Source: Hippasteria phrygiana (Eukaryota > Echinodermata > Asteroidea > Valvatida > Goniasteridae). Taken from it: a stretch of 64,000 bases of DNA. Each line of letters begins with the position of its first letter. Within the stretch, counting starts at the first letter, position 1. The translations under genes were made by a program, and so were the position numbers. Below are positions 1 to 51,543 of the stretch, in pieces. Below the pieces are notes generated by a model. It was not told the DNA's origin. It searched no databases and worked only from the letters and a program-made list of their open reading frames with translations. The stretch lies in contig JAZGUH010000402.1 in assembly GCA_037893225.1 (NCBI GenBank), forward strand, positions 1,736,001 through 1,800,000. The letters are read 5' to 3'.

Positions 1-287
1 TCCATGTCACTATGAACAACAAAAGAATAATGGTGCACTAACAATAAACATCCATTGCAAAGCTATTGCATTTCATTCAGTGCATGCTTAAGTTACTGCT
101 TCCCTGTTGTTCCAATAACCAAAGGCATTTTCTAAATATGAACTAGTTGGTGAAATGAAAATTATTAAATTCATAAAGCAAGTCAAAATGAATTCGATTT
201 GTGACATTTCTCTTTTCTTCAGAGTTTTGGCTTATCTTGCCTAATAGTATAGTTTGAAAAAATGTCTGCGCAGTACAATAATGTCAA
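1..287. other. AT-rich spacer without a recognisable gene
   Basis: No supported gene is seen here or in the equivalent stretch of each unit. On the minus strand it lies between the EGF-like exon of its own unit and the transposase start of the preceding unit, so it could hold transposase 5' leader or promoter. An AATAAA stands at 43-48 on the + strand, but it is about 2.2 kb beyond the endonuclease stop of the preceding unit and is unlikely to serve it. Confidence 0.5.
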
Positions 288-303
288 CACTAGTTAACTA
301 GTG
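288..303. other. Perfect 16-bp palindrome
   Basis: CACTAGTTAACTAGTG is its own reverse complement and is found just inside every full unit, about 80 bp from the EGF-like exon. A palindrome of this length could be a dimeric protein site; family I-PpoI endonucleases are homodimers that cut near-palindromic 14 to 16-bp targets. Any link to the endonuclease of the unit is speculation. Confidence 0.6.
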
Positions 304-381
304 CACGCCCCAACCAGTTGATTGTTTCAGAACCATTTATAGCCTTTCTCCAATTTGATTTCTGTAATAGCCAACCGGTAC

Positions 382-499
382 CTCTTTCACAGTTTTCACC
401 CACAAAACCATCGCTGCACCGGCAGACTACTGCGACGTTTACCCCCCGTACACGTGGCTCCATTCTGACACGGATTAACGCTCTCATGACACGGGCCCA
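382..499 (-). pseudogene. Captured EGF-like domain exon, frameshifted (U1)
   Basis: Read on the minus strand, the exon follows an acceptor (pyrimidine-rich tract then CACAG, AG at 500-501) and ends at a donor (AAGAG then GTACCG, GT at 381-380). It starts in phase 1 and would end in phase 1, the usual symmetry of EGF exons in animal extracellular proteins. The first half reads CHESVNPCQNGATC and the second VCRCSDGFVGENCE, giving all six EGF cysteines with normal spacing. The halves lie in different frames: the exon is 118 nt where 117 (39 codons) is expected, and a run of six G (minus strand) between the halves is the likely site of the extra base. No neighbouring EGF exon is visible, so this looks like a fragment of a host gene carried by the element. 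The identity of the donor gene cannot be told. Confidence 0.8.
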
Positions 500-566
500 C
501 TGTGAACATAAAAACCCAATCACAAACAGATTAGCCTATTTGGTTCAGCACTATCGTATATGGATT

Positions 567-586
567 GTGGCCCTGAAGGGACATGC
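567..586 (+). repeat. Left inverted arm flanking the minisatellite (U1)
   Basis: GTGGCCCTGAAGGGACATGC matches the reverse complement of a sequence on the far side of the minisatellite (in U2 at 4886-4905) at 19 of 20 positions. In U1 the right partner has been deleted. No convincing target-site duplication is seen outside the arms. Confidence 0.75.
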
Positions 587-591
587 ACACA

Positions 592-817
592 GCGCACATT
601 TTCTGCGCACATTTTCTGCGCACATTTTCTGCGCACATTTTCTGCGCACATTTTCTGCGCACATTTTCTGCGCACATTTTCTGCGCACATTTTCTGCGCA
701 CATTTTCTGCGCACATTTTCTGCGCACATTTTCTGCGCACATTTTCTGCGCACATTTTCTGCGCACATTTTCTGCGCACATTTTCTGCGCACATTTTCTG
801 CGCACATTTTCTGCGCA
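592..817. repeat. 13-bp minisatellite, 17.4 copies (U1)
   Basis: Pure head-to-tail copies of CGCACATTTTCTG. Thirteen is not a multiple of three and no frame of the repeat contains a stop, so long spurious open frames arise in several frames on both strands; none is taken as a gene. Each unit contains the palindrome TGCGCA. Confidence 0.97.
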
Positions 818-953
818 ATAAGAGGTCCCTGGGGCCTATAAATTGGACTGATTGTAGAAATATTTGTGGAAATCAAGAATTTGTGACCCGTGGCTTCCAA
901 CTCGGGGAATTCCGTTCACAAAAATGACCAATACGTAGGTCTATTTGGCATAG

Positions 954-1046
954 AGGCGGGGGGGGAGGGGGGCTACATTTAGACCTGGGCCCAGAGATGG
1001 GCCACCATTTTAGGGGTGGTTTGTGGGGAGGGCCAGGGAGTATAAA
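954..1046 (+). promoter_or_regulatory. G-rich tract and possible core promoter (U1)
   Basis: A run of eight G, an A and six G (about 958-972) is followed by a GGGG-GGGG-GGG-GGG series at 1013-1038 that fits a G-quadruplex pattern with one slightly long loop. A TATAAA follows at 1041-1046, 150 bp before the first ATG of the + strand transcript; another stands at 837-842. The first G run is 7 to 10 long among units: 8, 9, 8, 7, 8, 8, 7, 7, 9, 10, 9, 10 for U1 to U12. Promoter function is inferred only. Confidence 0.4.
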
Positions 1047-1190
1047 AAAAAAAAATTTCCTTCAACTCTCATAAATTTGAAAAGAAAATTATTCTAGGAG
1101 TCTTAATCTTTAATTTCCAGTGAAAAAAATATTGCCACCTTACTCCTGAGCGTCACCAGGCGGCGCTCTTTCTTTCTATTGGGTTACAAA

Positions 1191-1296
1191 ATGAGCGCCG
1201 TATTTAGTGGAGTGGAACCACTAGAGATCAGTGAGTGGAATCTATATGAAGCAAACATGGCGGCGCCCATATGCCAAGTGTACTCGCTAAAAATAG
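1191..1296 (+). other. Putative first exon of the + strand transcript (U1)
   Basis: An open stretch from ATG 1191 (35 codons plus one base) ends at a strong donor, AAATAG then GTATGT. A second in-frame ATG at 1257 sits in AAACATGGCGGC, 11 of 12 to the TISU/YY1 initiator element, and an ATTGG box lies at 1178-1182. With donor 1297 the frame enters the next exon out of phase and stops after six more codons, so it would act as an upstream frame overlapping the endonuclease start. A weaker donor (CAA then GTGTAC, GT at 1278) would join in phase 0 and add 29 residues to the endonuclease. Equivalent first ATGs are at 5380, 9616, 13788, 18000, 22160, 26358, 30544, 41626, 45793, 56888 and 61081. U3 has lost one TTTC just upstream. 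Confidence 0.5.
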
Positions 1297-1433
1297 GTAT
1301 GTTTCATGTTTTGAACTATGAAATCTCACAGAAAACACAGTAATGATTACACACATGATAGAGAACAAAATGGGTTCTGTCTTTCTTTTCTTTGTTTGCT
1401 CTCGCTGTCTTTTTATTCACATACACATTTCAG
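1297..1433 (+). other. Putative 137-bp intron before the endonuclease (U1)
   Basis: It begins GTATGT and ends with a long pyrimidine-rich stretch and CATTTCAG directly before ATG 1434. The same donor and acceptor are kept in every full unit. Confidence 0.6.
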
Positions 1434-1862
1434 ATGCCTATCCGCCATGTTAATTGTTACCAACATAATGCAGATTTCTTAAACCATAGCAAAATGGATT
1501 CCATCTGGAAGGCCTTAATTAAAGGCAAGATTTTAAGAAAGACTGTACACAGAGGCAGAAAAAATTGTAGAATATGGACAGGAAATGTCCAGCAGAAATA
1601 TGGCATTATTAATGTTGTCATGCCTGGCTCAAAATCAAATTCACGCACAAGGATGCGTGTGCACAGGTTCACTTACATTGTTTATTCTGGAGTCCTTGAT
1701 CTTCCCCGGGGGTATGATGTCAGTCACCTGTGCCACAACTCCTTGTGTGTGAATTTTGATCACCTGTCACTTGAGCCACACGCCATCAACACTGCAAGAT
1801 CTCGTTGTAAGAGATGCCGTTTGTGTTCGGGCCATGGCCCATACAAGGATTGTCTTCTTTAA
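1434..1862 (+). CDS. His-Cys box (His-Me finger, I-PpoI-like) endonuclease, U1
   Basis: The 142-residue protein ends in a His-Cys box: SHLCHNSLC, then DHLSLEPHAIN, then C-x2-C-x2-C-x2-H-x5-C. In the family, exemplified by the rDNA homing enzyme I-PpoI, a homodimer cuts DNA with a His general base and an Asn that binds the metal ion, braced by two zinc sites. The matching residues are His98, Asn119, zinc site 1 Cys45, Cys100, Cys105, His110, and zinc site 2 Cys125, Cys128 or Cys131, His134, Cys140. A basic stretch (residues 67-78, S-R-T-R-M-R) precedes it and could contact DNA. The start is the ATG right after a splice acceptor; the frame is open 14 codons further upstream but without an ATG. 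The stop is 198 bp from the stop of the convergent transposase. This copy has Phe79. Function is inferred from motifs; activity and target are unknown. Confidence 0.82.
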   Translation: MPIRHVNCYQHNADFLNHSKMDSIWKALIKGKILRKTVHRGRKNCRIWTGNVQQKYGIINVVMPGSKSNSRTRMRVHRFTYIVYSGVLDLPRGYDVSHLCHNSLCVNFDHLSLEPHAINTARSRCKRCRLCSGHGPYKDCLL

Positions 1863-2060
1863 AATGTAATTAAGGAGAACTTTTTGGCTCACCATTAAGT
1901 TTGATAACTGAAATTGCTCACCATTTTTTGATGCTACACTTTTTGCTTTTATAATTCATTTTTAATTGAAACGTATGCTGTAATTGTGCTCACTCTGAAT
2001 TCTTTGCCAATCCACATCTGGAGGGATTGCTGACTTGGGTTCCAGTTGCCCTTTCTTTTT

Positions 2061-3981
2061 CTACAATGACTTGGCACAGTTGTACAAGTTATATCGTTGT
2101 GCCCTACACTTTGCCCTTCGTATTTTATAATGTGTGCTCCTAGCCCGTTGGGAATGATATTTTTCTTTTCTGTCCATTTCAGCCAGACTTTTGGCAGCTG
2201 CAGATCCTGGCAAAACAGGACAACCTGCAGCTTCACACTTGACTGAGGATGATTAAGTTGGCATGGCCATTGTTGACAAGGTGAACTGCGCTGTGGTCTC
2301 TTGAGAGAGCATTTCTGGAAAAGGTTAGTGTCCCTTTTGGATTAGTACTTGAAAAAGCATGGTTCATGGACTCTGCTTTTTGTGTACTTGTCCCATATCT
2401 GGTTTTTTGCATTGCCTCGTGACCAATTCTCTTCTGAATTTTCAGTAAAAGCAGTTTCTTGTCAGACTCGAGCATTTTCAGTTTTCCCCTAACATGGACA
2501 GGAAGGTAGGGAAATCTGTTATTGCCATTGCAAACCAAGGACCGCTTTTTGCAAAGGTTGTGGCGACCTCGGTAACATTCGGGAATGGTTGAGGCAGCCT
2601 GTTCAGCCTTGTCATACATTTGGGCAAAGTTTCTCCCACATTTCTTGAGGATTGCCCCTGCTTCTGCTTGTACCCTGTGACTTACATCGTCACCTAACCG
2701 GTCTTGTATCTTTTTTTTTTTCATTTTTAGTTCTACCAGGCATCATGTCACCACTGAATTTGGCCCGACTGATTGCTGAACTGAGTGATCGATTTAAGTA
2801 AGGTGGGTCAAAAAAGTGTTCTGGCTCGATACCTGCTTTAATTCTCATCTGAGACATAAAACCTTTTGCCATACACCCGTCCGCATCGCTTGTTACTCTT
2901 TCTGCCAACAAGGGTTCCTTACACTCTAGAAGTTTCTTGGCACAACATTGAATTCCCCCTTCTCTTTCATCCCCCATGTTGTAATTTGCTGGGTGTGTAG
3001 CACTACAAGAATCTGTGTGCTCGGAACACTTGTTATACTGCTGTGTTTGCCTGACATTTGATTTGCACATTTACAGAGTTTATTCTCGTGGTGGTACATT
3101 ACTACCATTTTTTTGGTGGTTACATTCTCACATACTACGTCCCTAGTTTGGGTTGCCGGCACAAATGGTGTTTTTTTCCGACAGTTTCTCAAGGGGTTAT
3201 TGTATTGTCTATCTAATTCGACAGCAATCGGTTTTTCTCTGTCATAGCCCTGTAATTCTAAAATACCTTTGACCAGTTTTCTCTTTTCAGCCATACATCT
3301 AACATTTTCATTGATAATAATGTCCCCACATTTGCTTGCTGTTTTCTGCAGCCCACTGATTGAAGGAACAGTTGTACCCAATGCTGTCAAAAGTCGTCTT
3401 GCTCCTGTGGCTGCAATACCCGTGTTGAGGAGACCAACCTAAAAGGCCATGTTTGGAGTTGCAGTGCGTCGGCCTCTGCTGACCTGAGGTATCTCTGAGT
3501 ACAGCTTCTTCCTTCCTGTCGAGAAGTAGCACTTGTTGCATGACAGCACCTCTGAAACAGCAAGGCCCCGGTGTGTTTCTTGCTCTGCCTGTAGCTGAGG
3601 CCAGCCATCACAGTCAGGATTCGCATGCTGATGGTCCAGGGTAGCTCGAACACTTGTCTCAACTGTAGTGTTGACATGAACAATTTTGTAGCCGCCTGGG
3701 TTCAAGTTGTCGGCTCCTTCCCTCTGGAGTCTGCTTATCGGCGTTATTTCCTCAATTTTCGGTCGCAGCACCATCATAGTTTTATTAGTTCTGGCACCTG
3801 GTGGGTTGTAGAAAGAACCTCGCTCATCTCTGGGAAAGGCCAGTTGCAATTGTTCATTTGTGGGTCTGAAATAGAAAGATGAAACATCAGCCTTTTCTCT
3901 TATCAACTGACATGTCAGACCATTGCCTTTTTTTAAATAGGCTTTTTTCATCTTAAACATGCCCTTTCTGTAGCGAACCAT
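2061..3981 (-). pseudogene. Mutator-like (MULE) transposase, broken (U1)
   Basis: The start ATG at 3981 lies in TCCACCATGG. The conceptual product is about 637 codons. Features in order: HANPDCDGWPQL and a CNKC zinc-type pair (about 125-155), GRR-x4-N (about 170), the segment around LDRQYNNPL with candidate catalytic Asp257, ENVTTKKMV and a Cys-rich stretch (about 285-325), TSDADG with candidate Asp365, TQKAESMNHAF with candidate Glu536, and a basic tail. This order resembles the Mutator-like transposase domain of invertebrate proteins. Lesions here: amber TAG at 3439-3441, where the family usually has Gln; an extra TA near 3034-3037; a run of 11 T (+ strand) at 2711-2721 shifting the frame; and a 4-bp insertion near 2241-2244. 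An ATTAAA on the minus strand (1966-1961) could be the poly(A) signal. Not functional as read. Confidence 0.75.
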
Positions 3982-4413
3982 GGTGGACCTTTCAGTTGGT
4001 GAGTAATTAGGGTTATGAAGAGTTTTGTTTATTCCATGTCACTATGAACAACAAAAGAATAATGGTGCACTAACAATAAACATCCATTGCAAAGCTATTG
4101 CATTTCATTCAGTGCATGCTTAAGTTACTGCTTCCCTGTTGTTCCAATAACCAAAGGCATTTTCTAAATATGAACTAGTTGGTGAAATGAAAATTATTAA
4201 ATTCATAAAGCAAGTCAAAATGAATTCGATTTGTGACATTTCTCTTTTCTTCAGAGTTTTGGCTTATCTTGCCTAATAGTATAGTTTGAAAAAATGTCTG
4301 CGCAGTACAATAATGTCAACACTAGTTAACTAGTGCACGCCCCAACCAGTTGATTGTTTCAGAACCATTTATAGCCTTTCTCCAATTTGATTTCTGTAAT
4401 AGCCAACCGGTAC

Positions 4414-4531
4414 CTCTTTCACAGTTTTCACCCACAAAACCATCGCTGCACCGGCAGACTACTGCGACGTTTACCCCCCGTACACGTGGCTCCATTCTGA
4501 CACGGATTAACGCTCTCATGACACGGGCCCA
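4414..4531 (-). pseudogene. Captured EGF-like exon, frameshifted (U2)
   Basis: 118 nt between the same acceptor and donor, with the same six-G frameshift as the U1 copy. Confidence 0.78.
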
Positions 4532-4598
4532 CTGTGAACATAAAAACCCAATCACAAACAGATTAGCCTATTTGGTTCAGCACTATCGTATATGGATT

Positions 4599-4905
4599 GT
4601 GGCCCTGAAGGGACATGCACACTGCGCACATTTTCTGCGCACATTTTCTGCGCACATTTTCTGCGCACATTTTCTGCGCACATTTTCTGCGCACATTTTC
4701 TGCGCACATTTTCTGCGCACATTTTCTGCGCACATTTTCTGCGCACATTTTCTGCGCACATTTTCTGCGCACATTTTCTGCGCACATTTTCTGCGCACAT
4801 TTTCTGCGCACATTTTCTGCGCACATTTTCTGCGCACATTTTCTGCGCACATTTTCTGCGCACATTTTCTGCGCACATTTTCTGCGCATGTCCCTTTAGG
4901 GCCAC
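4599..4905. mobile_element. Inverted-arm element enclosing the minisatellite (U2)
   Basis: Left arm 4599-4618 and right arm 4886-4905 are 20-nt inverted repeats with one mismatch, and they enclose 4624-4888, made of 20.4 copies of the 13-bp repeat. This resembles a small non-autonomous inverted-repeat element with a minisatellite core. The flanks (GGATT on the left, GATAA on the right) do not give a clear target-site duplication, so insertion as a transposon is not proven. Confidence 0.55.
4624..4888. repeat. 13-bp minisatellite, 20.4 copies (U2)
   Basis: Pure copies of the CGCACATTTTCTG repeat. Confidence 0.97.
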
Positions 4906-5622
4906 GATAATTATGACTTCTATCAGCAGGGTGCATGCCACTAAATCTGTGAAAATCACTGCGCGCGAGCTCATTAATATTTTGTGATCCCTCCATTAAT
5001 TTGGAATAAGAGGTCCCTGGGGCCTATAAATTGGACTGATTGTAGAAATATTTGTGGAAATCAACAATTTGTGACCCGTGGCTTCCAACTCGGGGAATTC
5101 CGTTCACAAAAATGACCAATACGTAGGTCTATTTGGCATAGAGGCGGGGGGGGGAGGGGGGCTACATTTAGACCTGGGCCCAGAGATGGGCCACCATTTT
5201 AGGGGTGGTTTGTGGGGAGGGCCAGGGAGTATAAAAAAAAAAAATTTCCTTCAACTCTCATAAATTTGAAAAGAAAATTATTCTAGGAGTCTTAATCTTT
5301 AATTTCCAGTGAAAAAAATATTGCCACCTTACTCCTGAGCGTCACCAGGCGGCGCTCTTTCTTTCTATTGGGTTACAAAATGAGCGCCGTATTTAGTGGA
5401 GTGGAACCACTAGAGATCAGTGAGTGGAATCTATATGAAGCAAACATGGCGGCGCCCATATGCCAAGTGTACTCGCTAAAAATAGGTATGTTTCATGTTT
5501 TGAATTATGAAATCTCACAGAAAACACAGTAATGATTACACACATGATAGAGAACAAAATGGGTTCTGTCTTTCTTTTCTTTGTTTGCTCTCGCTGTCTT
5601 TTTATTCACATACACATTTCAG

Positions 5623-6051
5623 ATGCCTATCCGCCATGTTAATTGTTACCAACATAATGCAGATTTCTTAAACCATAGCAAAATGGATTCCATCTGGAAG
5701 GCCTTAATTAAAGGCAAGATTTTAAGAAAGACTGTACACAGAGGCAGAAAAAATTGTAGAATATGGACAGGAAATGTCCAGCAGAAATATGGCATTATTA
5801 ATGTTGTCATGCCTGGCTCAAAATCAAATTCACGCACAAGGATGCGTGTGCACAGGTTGACTTACATTGTTTATTCTGGAGTCCTTGATCTTCCCCGGGG
5901 GTATGATGTCAGTCACCTGTGCCACAACTCCTTGTGTGTGAATTTTGATCACCTGTCACTTGAGCCACATGCCATCAACACTGCAAGATCTCGTTGTAAG
6001 AGATGCCGTTTGTGTTCGGGCCATGGCCCATACAAGGATTGTCTTCTTTAA
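5623..6051 (+). CDS. His-Cys box endonuclease, U2
   Basis: 142 residues, intact. It differs from U1 by Leu79 in place of Phe79, and by a silent CAC to CAT change in the His116 codon. Confidence 0.82.
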   Translation: MPIRHVNCYQHNADFLNHSKMDSIWKALIKGKILRKTVHRGRKNCRIWTGNVQQKYGIINVVMPGSKSNSRTRMRVHRLTYIVYSGVLDLPRGYDVSHLCHNSLCVNFDHLSLEPHAINTARSRCKRCRLCSGHGPYKDCLL

Positions 6052-6249
6052 AATGTAATTAAGGAGAACTTTTTGGCTCACCATTAAGTTTGATAACTGA
6101 AATTGCTCACCATTTTTTGATGCTACACTTTTTGCTTTTATAATTCATTTTTAATTGAAACGTATGCTGTAATTGTGCTCACTCTGAATTCTTTGCCAAT
6201 CCACATCTGGAGGGATTGCTGACTTGGGTTCCAGTTGCCCTTTCTTTTT

Positions 6250-8170
6250 CTACAATGACTTGGCACAGTTGTACAAGTTATATCGTTGTGCCCTACACTT
6301 TGCCCTTCGTATTTTATAATGTGTGCTCCTAGCCCGTTGGGAATGATATTTTTCTTTTCTGTCCATTTCAGCCAGACTTTTGGCAGCTGCAGATCCTGGC
6401 AAAACAGGACAACCTGCAGCTTCACACTTGACTGAGGATGATTAAGTTGGCATGGCCATTGTTGACAAGGTGAACTGCGCTGTGGTCTCTTGAGAGAGCA
6501 TTTCTGGAAAAGGTTAGTGTCCCTTTTGGATTAGTACTTGAAAAAGCATGGTTCATGGACTCTGCTTTTTGTGTACTTGTCCCATATCTGGTTTTTTGCA
6601 TTGCCTCGTGACCAATTCTCTTCTGAATTTTCAGTAAAAGCAGTTTCTTGTCAGACTCGAGCATTTTCAGTTTTCCCCTAACATGGACAGGAAGGTAGGG
6701 AAATCTGTTATTGCCATTGCAAACCAAGGACCGCTTTTTGCAAAGGTTGTGGCGACCTCGGTAACATTCGGGAATGGTTGAGGCAGCCTGTTCAGCCTTG
6801 TCATACATTTGGGCAAAGTTTCTCCCACATTTCTTGAGGATTGCCCCTGCTTCTGCTTGTACCCTGTGACTTACATCGTCACCTAACCGGTCTTGTATCT
6901 TTTTTTTTTTCATTTTTAGTTCTACCAGGCATCATGTCACCACTGAATTTGGCCCGACTGATTGCTGAACTGAGTGATCGATTTAAGTAAGGTGGGTCAA
7001 AAAAGTGTTCTGGCTCGATACCTGCTTTAATTCTCATCTGAGACATAAAACCTTTTGCCATACACCCGTCCGCATCGCTTGTTACTCTTTCTGCCAACAA
7101 GGGTTCCTTACACTCTAGAAGTTTCTTGGCACAACATTGAATTCCCCCTTCTCTTTCATCCCCCATGTTGTAATTTGCTGGGTGTGTAGCACTACAAGAA
7201 TCTGTGTGCTCGGAACACTTGTTATACTGCTGTGTTTGCCTGACATTTGATTTGCACATTTACAGAGTTTATTCTCGTGGTGGTACATTACTACCATTTT
7301 TTTGGTGGTTACATTCTCACATACTACGTCCCTAGTTTGGGTTGCCGGCACAAATGGTGTTTTTTTCCGACAGTTTCTCAAGGGGTTATTGTATTGTCTA
7401 TCTAATTCGACAGCAATCGGTTTTTCTCTGTCATAGCCCTGTAATTCTAAAATACCTTTGACCAGTTTTCTCTTTTCAGCCATACATCTAACATTTTCAT
7501 TGATAATAATGTCCCCACATTTGCTTGCTGTTTTCTGCAGCCCACTGATTGAAGGAACAGTTGTACCCAATGCTGTCAAAAGTCGTCTTGCTCCTGTGGC
7601 TGCAATACCCGTGTTGAGGAGACCAACCTAAAAGGCCATGTTTGGAGTTGCAGTGCGTCGGCCTCTGCTGACCTGAGGTATCTCTGAGTACAGCTTCTTC
7701 CTTCCTGTCGAGAAGTAGCACTTGTTGCATGACAGCACCTCTGAAACAGCAAGGCCCCGGTGTGTTTCTTGCTCTGCCTGTAGCTGAGGCCAGCCATCAC
7801 AGTCAGGATTCGCATGCTGATGGTCCAGGGTAGCTCGAACACTTGTCTCAACTGTAGTGTTGACATGAACAATTCTGTAGCCGCCTGGGTTCAAGTTGTC
7901 GGCTCCTTCCCTCTGGAGTCTGCTTATCGGCGTTATTTCCTCAATTTTCGGTCGCAGCACCATCATAGTTTTATTAGTTCTGGCACCTGGTGGGTTGTAG
8001 AAAGAACCTCGCTCATCTCTGGGAAAGGCCAGTTGCAATTGTTCATTTGTGGGTCTGAAATAGAAAGATGAAACATCAGCCTTTTCTCTTATCAACTGAC
8101 ATGTCAGACCATTGCCTTTTTTTAAATAGGCTTTTTTCATCTTAAACATGCCCTTTCTGTAGCGAACCAT
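6250..8170 (-). pseudogene. Mutator-like transposase, broken (U2)
   Basis: Lesions as in U1: amber at 7628-7630, the TA insertion, the 11-T run and the 4-bp insertion. Codon 241 is still Leu. The GYRIVH segment has Arg where U1 has Lys. Confidence 0.75.
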
Positions 8171-8602
8171 GGTGGACCTTTCAGTTGGTGAGTAATTAGG
8201 GTTATGAAGAGTTTTGTTTATTCCATGTCACTATGAACAACAAAAGAATAATGGTGCACTAACAATAAACATCCATTGCAAAGCTATTGCATTTCATTCA
8301 GTGCATGCTTAAGTTACTGCTTCCCTGTTGTTCCAATAACCAAAGGCATTTTCTAAATATGAACTAGTTGGTGAAATGAAAATTATTAAATTCATAAAGC
8401 AAGTCAAAATGAATTCGATTTGTGACATTTCTCTTTTCTTCAGAGTTTTGGCTTATCTTGCCTAATAGTATAGTTTGAAAAAATGTCTGCGCAGTACAAT
8501 AATGTCAACACTAGTTAACTAGTGCACGCCCCAACCAGTTGATTGTTTCAGAACCATTTATAGCCTTTCTCCAATTTGATTTCTGTAATAGCCAACCGGT
8601 AC

Positions 8603-8720
8603 CTCTTTCACAGTTTTCACCCACAAAACCATCGCTGCACCGGCAGACTACTGCGACGTTTACCCCCCGTACACGTGGCTCCATTCTGACACGGATTAAC
8701 GCTCTCATGACACGGGCCCA
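8603..8720 (-). pseudogene. Captured EGF-like exon, frameshifted (U3)
   Basis: Same length, splice sites and frameshift as in U1. Confidence 0.78.
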
Positions 8721-8813
8721 CTGTGAACATAAAAACCCAATCACAAACAGATTAGCCTATTTGGTTCAGCACTATCGTATATGGATTGTGGCCCTGAAGG
8801 GACATGCACACAT

Positions 8814-9129
8814 CGCACATTTTCTGCGCACATTTTCTGCGCACATTTTCTGCGCACATTTTCTGCGCACATTTTCTGCGCACATTTTCTGCGCACATTT
8901 TCTGCGCACATTTTCTGCGCACATTTTCTGCGCACATTTTCTGCGCACATTTTCTGCGCACATTTTCTGCGCACATTTTCTGCGCACATTTTCTGCGCAC
9001 ATTTTCTGCGCACATTTTCTGCGCACATTTTCTGCGCACATTTTCTGCGCACATTTTCTGCGCACATTTTCTGCGCACATTTTCTGCGCACATTTTCTGC
9101 GCACATTTTCTGCGCACATTTTCTGCGCA
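8814..9129. repeat. 13-bp minisatellite, 24.3 copies (U3)
   Basis: The largest array in the window. Arms flank it at 8788-8807 and 9127-9146. The last base before the first full repeat differs from U1 and U2 (CATCGCAC rather than CAGCGCAC or CTGCGCAC). Confidence 0.97.
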
Positions 9130-9858
9130 TGTCCCTTTAGGGCCACGATAATTATGACTTCTATCAGCAGGGTGCATGCCACTAAATCTGTGAAAATCAC
9201 TGCGCGCGAGCTCATTAATATTTTGTGATCCCTCCATTAATTTGGAATAAGAGGTCCCTGGGGCCTATAAATTGGACTGATTGTAGAAATATTTGTGGAA
9301 ATCAAGAATTTGTGACCCGTGGCTTCCAACTCGGGGAATTCCGTTCACAAAAATGACCAATACGTAGGTCTATTTGGCATAGAGGCGGGGGGGGAGGGGG
9401 GCTACATTTAGACCTGGGCCCAGAGATGGGCCACCATTTTAGGGGTGGTTTGTGGGGAGGGCCAGGGAGTATAAAAAAAAAAAATTTCCTTCAACTCTCA
9501 TAAATTTGAAAAGAAAATTATTCTAGGAGTCTTAATCTTTAATTTCCAGTGAAAAAAATATTGCCACCTTACTCCTGAGCGTCACCAGGCGGCGCTCTTT
9601 CTATTGGGTTACAAAATGAGCGCCGTATTTAGTGGAGTGGAACCACTAGAGATCAGTGAGTGGAATCTATATGAAGCAAACATGGCGGCGCCCATATGCC
9701 AAGTGTACTCGCTAAAAATAGGTATGTTTCATGTTTTGAACTATGAAATCTCACAGAAAACACAGTAATGATTACACACATGATAGAGAACAAAATGGGT
9801 TCTGTCTTTCTTTTCTTTGTTTGCTCTCGCTGTCTTTTTATTCACATACACATTTCAG

Positions 9859-10287
9859 ATGCCTATCCGCCATGTTAATTGTTACCAACATAATGCAGAT
9901 TTCTTAAACCATAGCAAAATGGATTCCATCTGGAAGGCCTTAATTAAAGGCAAGATTTTAAGAAAGACTGTACACAGAGGCAGAAAAAATTGTAGAATAT
10001 GGACAGGAAATGTCCAGCAGAAATATGGCATTATTAATGTTGTCATGCCTGGCTCAAAATCAAATTCACGCACAAGGATGCGTGTGCACAGGTTGACTTA
10101 CATTGTTTATTCTGGAGTCCTTGATCTTCCCCGGGGGTATGATGTCAGTCACCTGTGCCACAACTCCTTGTGTGTGAATTTTGATCACCTGTCACTTGAG
10201 CCACATGCCATCAACACTGCAAGATCTCGTTGTAAGAGATGCCGTTTGTGTTCGGGCCATGGCCCATACAAGGATTGTCTTCTTTAA
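9859..10287 (+). CDS. His-Cys box endonuclease, U3
   Basis: Intact; protein identical to the U2 copy (Gln10, Gln53, Leu79). Confidence 0.82.
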   Translation: MPIRHVNCYQHNADFLNHSKMDSIWKALIKGKILRKTVHRGRKNCRIWTGNVQQKYGIINVVMPGSKSNSRTRMRVHRLTYIVYSGVLDLPRGYDVSHLCHNSLCVNFDHLSLEPHAINTARSRCKRCRLCSGHGPYKDCLL

Positions 10288-13298: not shown

Positions 13299-14030
13299 TG
13301 TCCCTTTAGGGCCACGATAATTATGACTTCTATCAGCAGGGTGCATGCCACTAAATCTGTGAAAATCACTGCGCGCGAGCTCATTAATATTTTGTGATCC
13401 CTCCATTAATTTGGAATAAGAGGTCCCTGGGGCCTATAAATTGGACTGATTGTAGAAATATTTGTGGAAATCAAGAATTTGTGACCCGTGGCTTCCAACT
13501 CGGGGAATTCCGTTCACAAAAATGACCAATACGTAGGTCTATTTGGCATAGAGGCGGGGGGGAGGGGGGCTACATTTAGACCTGGGCCCAGAGATGGGCC
13601 ACCATTTTAGGGGTGGTTTGTGGGGAGGGCCAGGGAGTATAAAAAAAAAAAATTTCCTTCAACTCTCATAAATTTGAAAAGAAAATTATTCTAGGAGTCT
13701 TAATCTTTAATTTCCAGTGAAAAAAATATTGCCACCTTACTCCTAAGCGTCACCAGGCGGCGCTCTTTCTTTCTATTGGGTTACAAAATGAGCGCCGTAT
13801 TTAGTGGAGTGGAACCACTAGAGATCAGTGAGTGGAATCTATATGAAGCAAACATGGCGGCGCCCATATGCCAAGTGTACTCGCTAAAAATAGGTATGTT
13901 TCATGTTTTGAACTATGAAATCTCACAGAAAACACAGTAATGATTACACACATGATAGAGAACAAAATGGGTTCTGTCTTTCTTTTCTTTGTTTGCTCTC
14001 GCTGTCTTTTTATTCACATACACATTTCAG

Positions 14031-14459
14031 ATGCCTATCCGCCATGTTAATTGTTACCAACATAATGCAGATTTCTTAAACCATAGCAAAATGGATTCCA
14101 TCTGGAAGGCCTTAATTAAAGGCAAGATTTTAAGAAAGACTGTACACAGAGGCAGAAAAAATTGTAGAATATGGACAGGAAATGTCCAGCAGAAATATGG
14201 CATTATTAATGTTGTCATGCCTGGCTCAAAATCAAATTCACGCACAAGGATGCGTGTGCACAGGTTGACTTACATTGTTTATTCTGGAGTCCTTGATCTT
14301 CCCCGGGGGTATGATGTCAGTCACCTGTGCCACAACTCCTTGTGTGTGAATTTTGATCACCTGTCACTTGAGCCACATGCCATCAACACTGCAAGATCTC
14401 GTTGTAAGAGATGCCGTTTGTGTTCGGGCCATGGCCCATACAAGGATTGTCTTCTTTAA
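14031..14459 (+). CDS. His-Cys box endonuclease, U4
   Basis: Intact; protein identical to U2 and U3. Confidence 0.82.
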   Translation: MPIRHVNCYQHNADFLNHSKMDSIWKALIKGKILRKTVHRGRKNCRIWTGNVQQKYGIINVVMPGSKSNSRTRMRVHRLTYIVYSGVLDLPRGYDVSHLCHNSLCVNFDHLSLEPHAINTARSRCKRCRLCSGHGPYKDCLL

Positions 14460-17509: not shown

Positions 17510-18242
17510 TGTCCCTTTAGGGCCACGATAATTATGACTTCTATCAGCAGGGTGCATGCCACTAAATCTGTGAAAATCACTGCGCGCGAGCTCATTAATA
17601 TTTTGTGATCCCTCCATTAATTTGGAATAAGAGGTCCCTGGGGCCTATAAATTGGACTGATTGTAGAAATATTTGTGGAAATCAAGAATTTGTGACCCGT
17701 GGCTTCCAACTCGGGGAATTCCGTTCACAAAAATGACCAATACGTAGGTCTATTTGGCATAGAGGCGGGGGGGGAGGGGGGCTACATTTAGACCTGGGCC
17801 CAGAGATGGGCCACCATTTTAGGGGTGGTTTGTGGGGAGGGCCAGGGAGTATAAAAAAAAAAAATTTCCTTCAACTCTCATAAATTTGAAAAGAAAATTA
17901 TTCTAGGAGTCTTAATCTTTAATTTCCAGTGAAAAAAATATTGCCACCTTACTCCTGAGCGTCACCAGGCGGCGCTCTTTCTTTCTATTGGGTTACAAAA
18001 TGAGCGCCGTATTTAGTGGAGTGGAACCACTAGAGATCAGTGAGTGGAATCTATATGAAGCAAACATGGCGGCGCCCATATGCCAAGTGTACTCGCTAAA
18101 AATAGGTATGTTTCATGTTTTGAACTATGAAATCTCACAGAAAACACAGTAATGATTACACACATGATAGAGAACAAAATGGGTTCTGTCTTTCTTTTCT
18201 TTGTTTGCTCTCGCTGTCTTTTTATTCACATACACATTTCAG

Positions 18243-18671
18243 ATGCCTATCCGCCATGTTAATTGTTACCAACATAATGCAGATTTCTTAAACCATAGCA
18301 AAATGGATTCCATCTGGAAGGCCTTAATTAAAGGCAAGATTTTAAGAAAGACTGTACACAGAGGCAGAAAAAATTGTAGAATATGGACAGGAAATGTCCA
18401 GCAGAAATATGGCATTATTAATGTTGTCATGCCTGGCTCAAAATCAAATTCACGCACAAGGATGCGTGTGCACAGGTTGACTTACATTGTTTATTCTGGA
18501 GTCCTTGATCTTCCCCGGGGGTATGATGTCAGTCACCTGTGCCACAACTCCTTGTGTGTGAATTTTGATCACCTGTCACTTGAGCCACATGCCATCAACA
18601 CTGCAAGATCTCGTTGTAAGAGATGCCGTTTGTGTTCGGGCCATGGCCCATACAAGGATTGTCTTCTTTAA
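18243..18671 (+). CDS. His-Cys box endonuclease, U5
   Basis: Intact; protein identical to U2. Confidence 0.82.
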   Translation: MPIRHVNCYQHNADFLNHSKMDSIWKALIKGKILRKTVHRGRKNCRIWTGNVQQKYGIINVVMPGSKSNSRTRMRVHRLTYIVYSGVLDLPRGYDVSHLCHNSLCVNFDHLSLEPHAINTARSRCKRCRLCSGHGPYKDCLL

Positions 18672-21669: not shown

Positions 21670-22402
21670 TGTCCCTTTAGGGCCACGATAATTATGACTT
21701 CTATCAGCAGGGTGCATGCCACTAAATCTGTGAAAATCACTGCGCGCGAGCTCATTAATATTTTGTGATCCCTCCATTAATTTGGAATAAGAGGTCCCTG
21801 GGGCCTATAAATTGGACTGATTGTAGAAATATTTGTGGAAATCAAGAATTTGTGACCCGTGGCTTCCAACTCGGGGAATTCCGTTCACAAAAATGACCAA
21901 TACGTAGGTCTATTTGGCATAGAGGCGGGGGGGGAGGGGGGCTACATTTAGACCTGGGCCCAGAGATGGGCCACCATTTTAGGGGTGGTTTGTGGGGAGG
22001 GCCAGGGAGTATAAAAAAAAAAAATTTCCTTCAACTCTCATAAATTTGAAAAGAAAATTATTCTAGGAGTCTTAATCTTTAATTTCCAGTGAAAAAAATA
22101 TTGCCACCTTACTCCTGAGCGTCACCAGGCGGCGCTCTTTCTTTCTATTGGGTTACAAAATGAGCGCCGTATTTAGTGGAGTGGAACCACTAGAGATCAG
22201 TGAGTGGAATCTATATGAAGCAAACATGGCGGCGCCCATATGCCAAGTGTACTCGCTAAAAATAGGTATGTTTCATGTTTTGAACTATGAAATCTCACAG
22301 AAAACACAGTAATGATTACACACATGATAGAGAACAAAATGGGTTCTGTCTTTCTTTTCTTTGTTTGCTCTCGCTGTCTTTTTATTCACATACACATTTC
22401 AG

Positions 22403-22831
22403 ATGCCTATCCGCCATGTTAATTGTTACCAACATAATGCAGATTTCTTAAACCATAGCAAAATGGATTCCATCTGGAAGGCCTTAATTAAAGGCAAGAT
22501 TTTAAGAAAGACTGTACACAGAGGCAGAAAAAATTGTAGAATATGGACAGGAAATGTCCAGCAGAAATATGGCATTATTAATGTTGTCATGCCTGGCTCA
22601 AAATCAAATTCACGCACAAGGATGCGTGTGCACAGGTTGACTTACATTGTTTATTCTGGAGTCCTTGATCTTCCCCGGGGGTATGATGTCAGTCACCTGT
22701 GCCACAACTCCTTGTGTGTGAATTTTGATCACCTGTCACTTGAGCCACATGCCATCAACACTGCAAGATCTCGTTGTAAGAGATGCCGTTTGTGTTCGGG
22801 CCATGGCCCATACAAGGATTGTCTTCTTTAA
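22403..22831 (+). CDS. His-Cys box endonuclease, U6
   Basis: Intact; protein identical to U2. Confidence 0.82.
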   Translation: MPIRHVNCYQHNADFLNHSKMDSIWKALIKGKILRKTVHRGRKNCRIWTGNVQQKYGIINVVMPGSKSNSRTRMRVHRLTYIVYSGVLDLPRGYDVSHLCHNSLCVNFDHLSLEPHAINTARSRCKRCRLCSGHGPYKDCLL

Positions 22832-25868: not shown

Positions 25869-26600
25869 TGTCCCTTTAGGGCCACGATAATTATGACTTC
25901 TATCAGCAGGGTGCATGCCACTAAATCTGTGAAAATCACTGCGCGCGAGCTCATTAATATTTTGTGATCCCTCCATTAATTTGGAATAAGAGGTCCCTGG
26001 GGCCTATAAATTGGACTGATTGTAGAAATATTTGTGGAAATCAAGAATTTGTGACCCGTGGCTTCCAACTCGGGGAATTCCGTTCACAAAAATGACCAAT
26101 ACGTAGGTCTATTTGGCATAGAGGCGGGGGGGAGGGGGGCTACATTTAGACCTGGGCCCAGAGATGGGCCACCATTTTAGGGGTGGTTTGTGGGGAGGGC
26201 CAGGGAGTATAAAAAAAAAAAATTTCCTTCAACTCTCATAAATTTGAAAAGAAAATTATTCTAGGAGTCTTAATCTTTAATTTCCAGTGAAAAAAATATT
26301 GCCACCTTACTCCTGAGCGTCACCAGGCGGCGCTCTTTCTTTCTATTGGGTTACAAAATGAGCGCCGTATTTAGTGGAGTGGAACCACTAGAGATCAGTG
26401 AGTGGAATCTATATGAAGCAAACATGGCGGCGCCCATATGCCAAGTGTACTCGCTAAAAATAGGTATGTTTCATGTTTTGAACTATGAAATCTCACAGAA
26501 AACACAGTAATGATTACACACATGATAGAGAACAAATTTGGTTCTGTCTTTCTTTTCTTTGTTTGCTCTCGCTGTCTTTTTATTCACATACACATTTCAG

Positions 26601-27029
26601 ATGCCTATCCGCCATGTTAATTGTTACCAACATAATGCAGATTTCTTAAACCATAGCAAAATGGATTCCATCTGGAAGGCCTTAATTAAAGGCAAGATTT
26701 TAAGAAAGACTGTACACAGAGGCAGAAAAAATTGTAGAATATGGACAGGAAATGTCCAGCAGAAATATGGCATTATTAATGTTGTCATGCCTGGCTCAAA
26801 ATCAAATTCACGCACAAGGATGCGTGTGCACAGGTTGACTTACATTGTTTATTCTGGAGTCCTTGATCTTCCCCGGGGGTATGATGTCAGTCACCTGTGC
26901 CACAACTCCTTGTGTGTGAATTTTGATCACCTGTCACTTGAGCCACATGCCATCAACACTGCAAGATCTCGTTGTAAGAGATGCCGTTTGTGTTCGGGCC
27001 ATGGCCCATACAAGGATTGTCTTCTTTAA
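26601..27029 (+). CDS. His-Cys box endonuclease, U7
   Basis: Intact; protein identical to U2. The nearby intron change opens the frame seven codons further upstream than in other copies, but adds no ATG. Confidence 0.82.
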   Translation: MPIRHVNCYQHNADFLNHSKMDSIWKALIKGKILRKTVHRGRKNCRIWTGNVQQKYGIINVVMPGSKSNSRTRMRVHRLTYIVYSGVLDLPRGYDVSHLCHNSLCVNFDHLSLEPHAINTARSRCKRCRLCSGHGPYKDCLL

Positions 27030-30053: not shown

Positions 30054-30786
30054 TGTCCCTTTAGGGCCACGATAATTATGACTTCTATCAGCAGGGTGCA
30101 TGCCACTAAATCTGTGAAAATCACTGCGCGCGAGCTCATTAATATTTTGTGATCCCTCCATTAATTTGGAATAAGAGGTCCCTGGGGCCTATAAATTGGA
30201 CTGATTGTAGAAATATTTGTGGAAATCAAGAATTTGTGACCCGTGGCTTCCAACTCGGGGAATTCCGTTCACAAAAATGACCAATACGTAGGTCTATTTG
30301 GCATAGAGGCGGGGGGGAGGGGGGCTACATTTAGACCTGGGCCCAGAGATGGGCCACCATTTTAGGGGTGGTTTGTGGGAAGGGCCAGGGAGTATAAAAA
30401 AATAAAAATTTCCTTCAACTCTCATAAATTTGAAAAGAAAATTATTCTAGGAGTCTTAATCTTTAATTTCCAGTGAAAAAAATATTGCCACCTTACTCCT
30501 GAGCGTCACCAGGCGGCGCTCTTTCTTTCTATTGGGTTACAAAATGAGCGCCGTATTTAGTGGAGTGGAACCACTAGAGATCAGTGAGTGGAATCTATAT
30601 GAAGCAAACATGGCGGCGCCCATATGCCAAGTGTACTCGCTAAAAATAGGTATGTTTCATGTTTTGAACTATGAAATCTCACAGAAAACACAGTAATGAT
30701 TACACACATGATAGAGAACAAAATGGGTTCTGTCTTTCTTTTCTTTGTTTGCTCTCGCTGTCTTTTTATTCACATACACATTTCAG

Positions 30787-31215
30787 ATGCCTATCCGCCA
30801 TGTTAATTGTTACCGACATAATGCAGATTTCTTAAACCATAGCAAAATGGATTCCATCTGGAAGGCCTTAATTAAAGGCAAGATTTTAAGAAAGACTGTA
30901 CACAGAGGCAGAAAAAATTGTAGAATATGGACAGGAAATGTCCAGCAGAAATATGGCATTATTAATGTTGTCATGCCTGGCTCAAAATCAAATTCACGCA
31001 CAAGGATGCGTGTGCACAGGTTGACTTACATTGTTTATTCTGGAGTCCTTGATCTTCCCCGGGGGTATGATGTCAGTCACCTGTGCCACAACTCCTTGTG
31101 TGTGAATTTTGATCACCTGTCACTTGAGCCACATGCCATCAACACTGCAAGATCTCGTTGTAAGAGATGCCGTTTGTGTTCGGGCCATGGCCCATACAAG
31201 GATTGTCTTCTTTAA
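30787..31215 (+). CDS. His-Cys box endonuclease, U8
   Basis: Intact, with one private change, Gln10 to Arg, well outside the His-Cys box. Leu79. The promoter-side A-rich tract has a T interruption (TATAAAAAAATAAAAA near 30393). Confidence 0.82.
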   Translation: MPIRHVNCYRHNADFLNHSKMDSIWKALIKGKILRKTVHRGRKNCRIWTGNVQQKYGIINVVMPGSKSNSRTRMRVHRLTYIVYSGVLDLPRGYDVSHLCHNSLCVNFDHLSLEPHAINTARSRCKRCRLCSGHGPYKDCLL

Positions 31216-31413: not shown

Positions 31414-32797
31414 CTACAATGACTTGGCACAGTTGTACAAGTTATATCGTTGTGCCCTACACTTTGCCCTTCGTATTTTATAATGTGTGCTCCTAGCCCG
31501 TTGGGAATGATATTTTTCTTTTCTGTCCATTTCAGCCAGACTTTTGGCAGCTGCAGATCCTGGCAAAACAGGACAACCTGCAGCTTCACACTTGACTGAG
31601 GATGATTAAGTTGGCATGGCCATTGTTGACAAGGTGAACTGCGCTGTGGTCTCTTGAGAGAGCATTTCTGGAAAAGGTTAGTGTCCCTTTTGGATTAGTA
31701 CTTGAAAAAGCATGGTTCATGGACTCTGCTTTTTGTGTACTTGTCCCATATCTGGTTTTTTGCATTGCCTCGTGACCAATTCTCTTCTGAATTTTCAGTA
31801 AAAGCAGTTTCTTGTCAGACTCGAGCATTTTCAGTTTTCCCCTAACATGGACAGGAAGGTAGGGAAATCTGTTATTGCCATTGCAAACCAAGGACCGCTT
31901 TTTGCAAAGGTTGTGGCGACCTCGGTAACATTCGGGAATGGTTGAGGCAGCCTGTTCAGCCATGTCATACATTTGGGCAAAGTTTCTCCCACATTTCTTG
32001 AGGATTGCCCCTGCTTCTGCTTGTACCCTGTGACTTACATCGTCACCTAACCGGTCTTGTATCTTTTTTTTTTTCATTTTTAGTTCTACCAGGCATCATG
32101 TCACCACTGAATTTGGCCCGACTGATTGCTGAACTGAGTGATCGATTTAAGTAAGGTGGGTCAAAAAAGTGTTCTGGCTCGATACCTGCTTTAATTCTCA
32201 TCTGAGACATAAAACCTTTTGCCATACACCCGTCCGCATCGCTTGTTACTCTTTCTGCCAACAAGGGTTCCTTACACTCTAGAAGTTTCTTGGCACAACA
32301 TTGAATTCCCCCTTCTCTTTCATCCCCCATGTTGTAATTTGCTGGGCGTGTAGCACTACAAGAATCTGTGTGCTCGGAACACTTGTTACTGCTGTGTTTG
32401 CCTGACATTTGATTTGCACATTTACAGAGTTTATTCTCGTGGTGGTACATTACTACCATTTTTTTGGTGGTTACATTCTCACATACTACGTCCCTAGTTT
32501 GGGTTGCCGGCACAAATGGTGTTTTTTTCCGACAGTTTCTCAAGGGGTTATTGTATTGTCTATCTAATTCGACAGCAATCGGTTTTTCTCTGTCATAGCC
32601 CTGTAATTCTTAAATACCTTTGACCAGTTTTCTCTTTTCAGCCATACATCTAACATTTTCATTGATAATAATGTCCCCACATTTGCTTGCTGTTTTCTGC
32701 AGCCCACTGATTGAAGGAACAGTTGTACCCAATGCTGTCAAAAGTCGTCTTGCTCCTGTGGCTGCAATACCCGTGTTGAGGAGACCAACCTAAAAGG
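31414..32797 (-). pseudogene. Transposase fragment lacking its 5' end (U8, first)
   Basis: Runs from the junction at 32797, five bases 5' of the shared amber (32790-32792), to the normal stop. It has lost the first 180 codons, and has TAA at codon 241, the 11-T run and the 4-bp insertion. Confidence 0.75.
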
Positions 32798-32808
32798 TAT
32801 GATGTCAG

Positions 32809-32958
32809 TATGATGTCAGTCACCTGTGCCACAACTCCTTGTGTGTGAATTTTGATCACCTGTCACTTGAGCCACACGCCATCAACACTGCAAGATCTCG
32901 TTGTAAGAGATGCCGTTTGTGTTCGGGCCATGGCCCATACAAGGATTGTCTTCTTTAA
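32809..32958 (+). pseudogene. Endonuclease 3' fragment, residues 94-142
   Basis: Holds the whole His-Cys box (His98, Asn119 and both C-terminal zinc ligand sets) but no start codon. An in-frame TGA lies at 32800-32802, created by the 11-bp duplication. Confidence 0.8.
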
Positions 32959-33156
32959 AATGTAATTAAGGAGAACTTTTTGGCTCACCATTAAGTTTGA
33001 TAACTGAAATTGCTCACCATTTTTTGATGCTACACTTTTTGCTTTTATAATTCATTTTTAATTGAAACGTATGCTGTAATTGTGCTCACTCTGAATTCTT
33101 TGCCAATCCACATCTGGAGGGATTGCTGACTTGGGTTCCAGTTGCCCTTTCTTTTT

Positions 33157-34540
33157 CTACAATGACTTGGCACAGTTGTACAAGTTATATCGTTGTGCCC
33201 TACACTTTGCCCTTCGTATTTTATAATGTGTGCTCCTAGCCCGTTGGGAATGATATTTTTCTTTTCTGTCCATTTCAGCCAGACTTTTGGCAGCTGCAGA
33301 TCCTGGCAAAACAGGACAACCTGCAGCTTCACACTTGACTGAGGATGATTAAGTTGGCATGGCCATTGTTGACAAGGTGAACTGCGCTGTGGTCTCTTGA
33401 GAGAGCATTTCTGGAAAAGGTTAGTGTCCCTTTTGGATTAGTACTTGAAAAAGCATGGTTCATGGACTCTGCTTTTTGTGTACTTGTCCCATATCTGGTT
33501 TTTTGCATTGCCTCGTGACCAATTCTCTTCTGAATTTTCAGTAAAAGCAGTTTCTTGTCAGACTCGAGCATTTTCAGTTTTCCCCTAACATGGACAGGAA
33601 GGTAGGGAAATCTGTTATTGCCATTGCAAACCAAGGACCGCTTTTTGCAAAGGTTGTGGCGACCTCGGTAACATTCGGGAATGGTTGAGGCAGCCTGTTC
33701 AGCCATGTCATACATTTGGGCAAAGTTTCTCCCACATTTCTTGAGGATTGCCCCTGCTTCTGCTTGTACCCTGTGACTTACATCGTCACCTAACCGGTCT
33801 TGTATCTTTTTTTTTTTCATTTTTAGTTCTACCAGGCATCATGTCACCACTGAATTTGGCCCGACTGATTGCTGAACTGAGTGATCGATTTAAGTAAGGT
33901 GGGTCAAAAAAGTGTTCTGGCTCGATACCTGCTTTAATTCTCATCTGAGACATAAAACCTTTTGCCATACACCCGTCCGCATCGCTTGTTACTCTTTCTG
34001 CCAACAAGGGTTCCTTACACTCTAGAAGTTTCTTGGCACAACATTGAATTCCCCCTTCTCTTTCATCCCCCATGTTGTAATTTGCTGGGCGTGTAGCACT
34101 ACAAGAATCTGTGTGCTCGGAACACTTGTTACTGCTGTGTTTGCCTGACATTTGATTTGCACATTTACAGAGTTTATTCTCGTGGTGGTACATTACTACC
34201 ATTTTTTTGGTGGTTACATTCTCACATACTACGTCCCTAGTTTGGGTTGCCGGCACAAATGGTGTTTTTTTCCGACAGTTTCTCAAGGGGTTATTGTATT
34301 GTCTATCTAATTCGACAGCAATCGGTTTTTCTCTGTCATAGCCCTGTAATTCTTAAATACCTTTGACCAGTTTTCTCTTTTCAGCCATACATCTAACATT
34401 TTCATTGATAATAATGTCCCCACATTTGCTTGCTGTTTTCTGCAGCCCACTGATTGAAGGAACAGTTGTACCCAATGCTGTCAAAAGTCGTCTTGCTCCT
34501 GTGGCTGCAATACCCGTGTTGAGGAGACCAACCTAAAAGG
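33157..34540 (-). pseudogene. Transposase fragment (U8, shortened copy 1)
   Basis: Same extent and lesions as the fragment at 31414-32797. Confidence 0.73.
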
Positions 34541-34551
34541 TATGATGTCAG

Positions 34552-34701
34552 TATGATGTCAGTCACCTGTGCCACAACTCCTTGTGTGTGAATTTTGATC
34601 ACCTGTCACTTGAGCCACACGCCATCAACACTGCAAGATCTCGTTGTAAGAGATGCCGTTTGTGTTCGGGCCATGGCCCATACAAGGATTGTCTTCTTTA
34701 A
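34552..34701 (+). pseudogene. Endonuclease 3' fragment (U8, copy 2)
   Basis: Residues 94-142 only, with no usable start. Confidence 0.8.
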
Positions 34702-34899
34702 AATGTAATTAAGGAGAACTTTTTGGCTCACCATTAAGTTTGATAACTGAAATTGCTCACCATTTTTTGATGCTACACTTTTTGCTTTTATAATTCATTT
34801 TTAATTGAAACGTATGCTGTAATTGTGCTCACTCTGAATTCTTTGCCAATCCACATCTGGAGGGATTGCTGACTTGGGTTCCAGTTGCCCTTTCTTTTT

Positions 34900-36283
34900 C
34901 TACAATGACTTGGCACAGTTGTACAAGTTATATCGTTGTGCCCTACACTTTGCCCTTCGTATTTTATAATGTGTGCTCCTAGCCCGTTGGGAATGATATT
35001 TTTCTTTTCTGTCCATTTCAGCCAGACTTTTGGCAGCTGCAGATCCTGGCAAAACAGGACAACCTGCAGCTTCACACTTGACTGAGGATGATTAAGTTGG
35101 CATGGCCATTGTTGACAAGGTGAACTGCGCTGTGGTCTCTTGAGAGAGCATTTCTGGAAAAGGTTAGTGTCCCTTTTGGATTAGTACTTGAAAAAGCATG
35201 GTTCATGGACTCTGCTTTTTGTGTACTTGTCCCATATCTGGTTTTTTGCATTGCCTCGTGACCAATTCTCTTCTGAATTTTCAGTAAAAGCAGTTTCTTG
35301 TCAGACTCGAGCATTTTCAGTTTTCCCCTAACATGGACAGGAAGGTAGGGAAATCTGTTATTGCCATTGCAAACCAAGGACCGCTTTTTGCAAAGGTTGT
35401 GGCGACCTCGGTAACATTCGGGAATGGTTGAGGCAGCCTGTTCAGCCATGTCATACATTTGGGCAAAGTTTCTCCCACATTTCTTGAGGATTGCCCCTGC
35501 TTCTGCTTGTACCCTGTGACTTACATCGTCACCTAACCGGTCTTGTATCTTTTTTTTTTTCATTTTTAGTTCTACCAGGCATCATGTCACCACTGAATTT
35601 GGCCCGACTGATTGCTGAACTGAGTGATCGATTTAAGTAAGGTGGGTCAAAAAAGTGTTCTGGCTCGATACCTGCTTTAATTCTCATCTGAGACATAAAA
35701 CCTTTTGCCATACACCCGTCCGCATCGCTTGTTACTCTTTCTGCCAACAAGGGTTCCTTACACTCTAGAAGTTTCTTGGCACAACATTGAATTCCCCCTT
35801 CTCTTTCATCCCCCATGTTGTAATTTGCTGGGCGTGTAGCACTACAAGAATCTGTGTGCTCGGAACACTTGTTACTGCTGTGTTTGCCTGACATTTGATT
35901 TGCACATTTACAGAGTTTATTCTCGTGGTGGTACATTACTACCATTTTTTTGGTGGTTACATTCTCACATACTACGTCCCTAGTTTGGGTTGCCGGCACA
36001 AATGGTGTTTTTTTCCGACAGTTTCTCAAGGGGTTATTGTATTGTCTATCTAATTCGACAGCAATCGGTTTTTCTCTGTCATAGCCCTGTAATTCTTAAA
36101 TACCTTTGACCAGTTTTCTCTTTTCAGCCATACATCTAACATTTTCATTGATAATAATGTCCCCACATTTGCTTGCTGTTTTCTGCAGCCCACTGATTGA
36201 AGGAACAGTTGTACCCAATGCTGTCAAAAGTCGTCTTGCTCCTGTGGCTGCAATACCCGTGTTGAGGAGACCAACCTAAAAGG
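34900..36283 (-). pseudogene. Transposase fragment (U8, shortened copy 2)
   Basis: 5'-truncated at the joint; TAA at codon 241, 11-T run and 4-bp insertion. Confidence 0.73.
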
Positions 36284-36294
36284 TATGATGTCAG

Positions 36295-48046: not shown

Positions 48047-48057
48047 TATGATGTCAG

Positions 48058-49789: not shown

Positions 49790-49800
49790 TATGATGTCAG

Positions 49801-51532: not shown

Positions 51533-51543
51533 TATGATGTCAG

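Follow-up and report, generated by a model that had tools for sequence, protein, structure and literature searches.

The 64-kb stretch of DNA analysed here (the window, C402:1736001-1800000) is very probably part of a long tandem array that descends from a KolobokP DNA transposon, of which an altered copy would have been amplified by unequal exchange. Judging from anatomy, gene content and motif order, we regard the repeated element with high confidence as a KolobokP derivative. The DNA itself shows which genes are present, their strand order, the anatomy of the LTDR and its inverted ends, and the tandem layout. The window adds a further genome in which animal DNA transposons are confirmed to carry I-PpoI-type endonucleases, and illustrates the reach of such elements, with repeats of ~4.2-4.5 kb in arrays that apparently extend over hundreds of kb.

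KolobokP elements, of which 228 families are published, were described by Kojima & Bao (Mobile DNA 2022, PMC9587614) from seven animal phyla as LTDR-INT-LTDR structures, generally >4 kb in length when autonomous. Their LTDRs, ~450 or ~660 bp in length, begin and end in inverted repeats of 11-18 bp in the pattern 5'-RR..YY-3', and their genes encode a DDE transposase and, on the complementary strand, an I-PpoI-like nuclease. Target duplications are 3-4 or 4-5 bp long, and the elements also occur as solo LTDRs and as multimers of the type (LTDR-INT)n-LTDR. The initial annotation had suspected an undescribed family of homing endonucleases. This we reject, since transposon-borne I-PpoI-like nucleases, multimers included, already figure in that paper. 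Beyond it, no further account of such elements appeared among the titles and abstract openings listed in a literature search.

The endonuclease ORF at 1434-1862 (+) encodes 142 amino acids and matches PF05551 (E 6.9e-10). His98, Cys100, Cys105, His110, Asn119, Cys125 and His134, the residues named in the initial annotation, were all seen. The I-PpoI stretch SHLCHNTRC..H..N..C aligned to the window endonuclease without gaps, and chain positions 98, 100, 105, 110, 119 and 125 of I-PpoI bear the same numbers in both proteins. The claimed I-PpoI spacing thus holds at these positions, while 134 is not covered by this alignment. In an alignment of 41 proteins, His98, Cys100, Cys105 and Asn119 were invariant, and Cys45, His110, Cys125, Cys131, His134 and Cys140 showed at least 90% conservation. 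That is, eight Cys/His positions, able to hold two zinc ions, are kept across the 41 proteins. The His and Asn of the active site and both predicted zinc sites (8 Cys/His) are all present, as in His-Cys box enzymes. PF05551 was matched by 41 of the 41 aligned relatives and HNH_3 was the only other Pfam family among them; the zinc-loop family search that had been proposed as a check brought up no unrelated zinc-finger family. The ORF is not a product of chance.

A single-sequence search of the PDB with the endonuclease did not find I-PpoI; in a profile search (E up to 1), I-PpoI was the sole match. It was also the top match of the structure model by VIA-align, with 17-18% identity in the structural alignment, though Foldseek scores of the model were weak. 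The structural check proposed beforehand hence came out in favour of I-PpoI, and the endonuclease is predicted to adopt the same beta-beta-alpha metal fold. I-HmuI, an HNH homing endonuclease, gave a lower Z than I-PpoI and was absent from the profile search (E up to 1). Next after these two came the DNA-binding domains Smad MH1 and NFI, which belong to transcription factors, not nucleases; both were absent from the profile search of the PDB (E up to 1). The endonuclease is a genuine relative of the slime-mould enzyme I-PpoI, sharing with it and other His-Cys box homing endonucleases the active-site and zinc-ligand residues, PF05551 and the predicted fold. It differs from the His-Cys box enzymes of group I introns in its 122 residues from Met21, in its low overall identity and in its location: an Rfam search of window positions 1-9000 found no group I intron (the one match with E of 1 or below was to a bacterial sRNA, E 0.84). 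Its place beside a DDE-type transposase, within a tandem array in an animal-type genome, was borne out.

Translation of the endonuclease probably starts at Met21 (1494) rather than at 1434, because the Met21 column is conserved (Met in ≥90% of 41 aligned sequences) and residues 1-20 of the window array have no counterpart in a sister array on contig C328, where ~210 bp extra stand in their place. The probable true coding sequence is 1494-1862 (+, 122 aa). Residues 21-142 differ at two positions between the window and C328, and a dispersed monomer on contig C98 (locus L039) has, like C328, the longer form at the 5' part of the gene. A GT..AG interval directly 5' of the ORF (1297-1433, +) is a candidate 5' intron, predicted from the letters alone. 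No relatives were confirmed in viral contigs or in bacterial and archaeal genome contigs.

Downstream of the endonuclease ORF, on the minus strand, lies the remnant of a Kolobok-type DDE transposase (2233-3981) with an in-frame stop and frameshifts. It matches the Pfam model PF20700 ('Mutator-like transposase') at 3439-3981 (E 3.7e-8) and 2926-3390 (E 4.6e-9), as does the longest open piece in the window (62123-63079, -, 318 aa, E 1.6e-11). Read by eye, the motifs follow each other as ELDRQYNN, a C..C..H..C group, TSDADG, DVSH, a second zinc-finger-like group and QKAESMN. This order, D..CCHC..D..DxxH..zinc finger..E, is the one given for Kolobok transposases, with their two zinc fingers, in PMC9587614; the two zinc fingers and the C/DxxH motif of a Kolobok-type DDE transposase were both recognised by eye. 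Our assignment to Kolobok draws on this motif order and on PF20700, a model that is not Kolobok-specific. The MULE-like neighbour of the initial annotation is therefore right as to the Pfam match, but its motif order is that of Kolobok. Three relatives (P0042, P0045 and P0046) have an open frame at the position of the stop, and a Holothuria leucospilota protein (P0044) is 43% identical to the transposase piece. The frameshifts lie 3' of the stop common to the array transposases and differ among copies.

The LTDR at 4929-5408 is 480 bp long and has 18-bp inverted ends (GGGTGCATGCCACTAAAT / ATTTAGTGGAGTGGAACC, 14/18 paired) with GG..CC termini, which fit the RR..YY pattern; size, inverted ends and termini all agree with published KolobokP LTDRs. 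Copies at L010, L037 and the monomer L039 stop at the same end points. Another candidate, 4401-5025, near a different inverted pair, was dropped after copies elsewhere and the monomer had given 4929-5408. In total, the window holds 12 LTDRs. Besides 4929-5408 and a copy at 9170-9644, full or nearly full copies lie at 13339-13816, 17550-18028, 21710-22188, 25909-26386, 30094-30572, 45343-45821 and 60631-61109. The copy at 817-1219 lacks the first 76 bp, and those at 41232-41654 and 56494-56916 are truncated.

The monomer L039 consists of an LTDR (113-549), INT (550-4187) and a second LTDR (4188-4655). GTAG stands immediately outside both ends, a 4-bp target duplication within the 3-5 bp known for KolobokP, observed at this one monomer read; the array in the window has its ends outside the window. 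Residues 46-142 of the endonuclease are encoded in L039, and the opposite strand holds a transposase interrupted by one stop within the part compared. The insertion is not a recent one, since the two LTDRs of L039 are 88% identical. At a candidate solo LTDR, L037 on contig C614, the flanks agree at 3/4 bases of the expected duplication, and on the right side the flank is similar to the beginning of the junction sequence in C328 (10/12 bases by eye), so L037 may hold an INT remnant. For these two reasons it was demoted from a clean solo LTDR to weak support. Nine of the ten LTDR sites fetched (L028-L036) had no target duplication, and their flanks were common to each other on one or two sides.

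Twelve full-length endonuclease copies, 99.3-100% identical, were found in the window in addition to nine 151-bp fragments of its 3' end, so the annotated number of 12 copies in 64 kb was correct. After the first ORF copy (1434-1862), they follow on the plus strand at 5623-6051, 9859-10287, 14031-14459, 18243-18671, 22403-22831, 26601-27029, 30787-31215, 41869-42297, 46036-46464, 57131-57559 and 61324-61752. These copies arose by tandem amplification, not by independent insertions. The array unit departs from a plain (LTDR-INT) arrangement: compared with the monomer L039, ~675 bp before the LTDR and ~20-30 bp after it are unmatched. The ~675-bp segment, whose length varies with a 13-bp minisatellite, replaces the last 370 bp of the monomer INT and also contains the palindrome CACTAGTTAACTAGTG. 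Between LTDR and INT, the array units have extra bases and a 13-bp remnant resembling an LTDR end. The minisatellite (GCGCACATTTTCT) lies at 4622-4888 between 26-bp inverted repeats (4596-4621 / 4883-4908) and occupies 12 places in the window (592-817, 4622-4888 and ten more) with 17-24 units, depending on the copy. Together with its inverted repeats (88%), it resembles a small inverted-repeat element whose interior consists of tandem repeats. A nested sub-array of 1743 bp, made of the endonuclease 3' end and part of the transposase, lies at ~31586-38558 and ~46835-53807, and a ~15.2-kb block repeated in the window forms a higher-order unit.

Set against KolobokP as described in the accessible text of PMC9587614, the window element has the same Kolobok-type transposase, opposite-strand I-PpoI-like nuclease and LTDR with short RR..YY inverted ends, as well as the ~4.2-kb unit, the multimers and, at the monomer, the 4-bp target duplication. 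Units share LTDRs as in KolobokP multimers, with 12 LTDRs to 12 endonuclease copies, though in an altered unit. This unit differs in the additional DNA at the junction and upstream, the palindrome, the minisatellite and the disabled array transposase. The arrays are also far longer than the multimers spelled out there, LTDR-(INT)n-LTDR with n up to 4; for other multimer forms, the accessible text sets no upper n.

On this reading, the element would first have been moved by its own transposase. An altered copy would then have arisen, containing additional DNA at the LTDR junction and also upstream of the transposase; it would have multiplied, through unequal exchange among direct repeats, to form satellite arrays. 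What we saw directly are a dispersed monomer with its target duplication, a transposase that is disabled and endonuclease frames that are mostly open. By analogy, the endonuclease, a homodimer if it is I-PpoI-like, may provoke exchange by cutting a semi-palindromic site in the unit. Such a trigger function is suggested by the fold and by the model in PMC9587614, where the nuclease is proposed to induce unequal crossover and experiment is said to be awaited. The arrays can be fully accounted for by ordinary unequal crossing-over, with no part played by the endonuclease. Since enzyme, candidate substrate and outcome reside in one repeat unit, the idea of endonuclease-driven multimers is directly testable.

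A further-reaching alternative, which we consider unlikely, is that the endonuclease drives a selfish satellite: it would outlive the transposase under selection and cut a palindrome in each unit, and break-induced unequal exchange would add units. If true, nature would here have realised on a large scale the 'induced unequal crossover' modelled in PMC9587614. The palindrome in question, CACTAGTTAACTAGTG (4320-4335), is perfect, 16 bp long, TTAA-centred and present in 12 window copies, and it is the sole perfect palindrome with arms of at least 7 in the window. We counted 596 sites in the genome versus 2 for the control, and it was intact in all of the 46 rows compared (the finder required matching flanks, and one row, L002, repeats a window site). 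TTAA-centred palindromes of at least 16 bp appeared in 4 of 500 shuffled units (22 of 500 for any centre), but the centre was judged only after it had been seen. Because I-PpoI leaves TTAA overhangs (PMC9587614), CACTAGTTAACTAGTG is, by analogy, a fair candidate for the endonuclease substrate and cut site. However, the monomer L039 has no such palindrome. Nor was it found in the single C33 stretch read (L038), and it is not supported as a KolobokP-wide homing site. A second, perfect 18-bp palindrome, TGATCTCTATAGAGATCA, lies between the LTDR right end and the 13-bp remnant in the C328, C32 and C151 units; the window family retains its right half only.

The coding frames speak for the same alternative. 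The endonuclease core frame was open in 34 of the 36 full copies read (24 partial matches excluded, L001-L008 unused), namely in 17/17 on C402 (12 of them in the window), 11/11 on C328, 5/5 on C32 and 1/3 on C974, versus an in-frame stop after ..TPNMAF at 38 of 39 transposase sites (exact flank pattern, window and loci L009-L039). The C151 unit (L040) has an open core frame as well. Two disrupted endonuclease copies (L021 4121-4491 and L023 5249-5621) lie near the start of C974, as does the sole transposase site lacking the common stop. Between C402 and C328, the endonuclease differs by 4 synonymous and 2 nonsynonymous changes in 122 codons (dN 0.0071, dS 0.051), versus 2 and 9 in 513 codons of the transposase (dN 0.0075, dS 0.0060), which suggests purifying selection on the endonuclease. 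But the two sets of counts do not differ significantly (Fisher p 0.11), and the C151 unit, compared with the window by eye, is about neutral, with 3 synonymous versus 6 amino-acid changes, one of them at the near-invariant Leu111. Homogenised arrays also hold frames open for a while even without purifying selection.

Relatives of the KolobokP-derived array were mapped across the genome (944 Mb, 1285 contigs). On C402, array homology starts at ~1,449,720 and can still be recognised close to the contig end at 1,920,927; we infer its continuity from the window together with the other pieces that were read and from endonuclease matches along the contig. Further arrays lie on C974 (contig start), C328, C32 and C151, and arrays appear to run for hundreds of kb, with repeats of ~4.2-4.5 kb and endonuclease frames mostly open where read. 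A search for a 51-base endonuclease motif, allowing up to 3 mismatches, gave 739 places in the genome (truncated copies counted) versus 0 for the control, and the best 150 of 923 endonuclease candidates were all without an internal stop. Could the assembler have collapsed or multiplied the long arrays? Two 15.2-kb stretches of the window recur at nearly equal spacing, one contig ends within an array and another begins in one. Yet the units have minisatellites of different lengths and carry different truncations and base changes; in addition, different contigs hold arrays of several lineages, and dispersed copies exist too, so we judge such an artefact very improbable. Least credible of all is a true MULE of the Mutator superfamily, unrelated to KolobokP, that captured the endonuclease: the Pfam label 'Mutator-like' is outweighed by LTDRs with inverted ends, the strand arrangement, the 4-bp target duplication at the single monomer read and the transposase motifs in the Kolobok order of PMC9587614.

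Related LTDRs also stand in rows on C33, C194, C225 and C549. Genome-wide, LTDR right ends not followed by A, a condition that leaves out arrays of the window's type, numbered 121, versus 0 for a reversed-pattern control. Among the right ends listed, at least 33 fall in one C194 array, others form rows on C225 and C549, and several pairs or triples are spaced 4.1-4.2 kb apart (C98, C272, C371, C529, C564, C610 and C707). The single C33 stretch read (4.6 kb) matched neither the endonuclease nor either of two transposase relatives. On C194, the array at ~1,551,000-1,710,000 has inverted LTDR pairs ~44 bp apart, at spacings of 3.9 and 4.66 kb.
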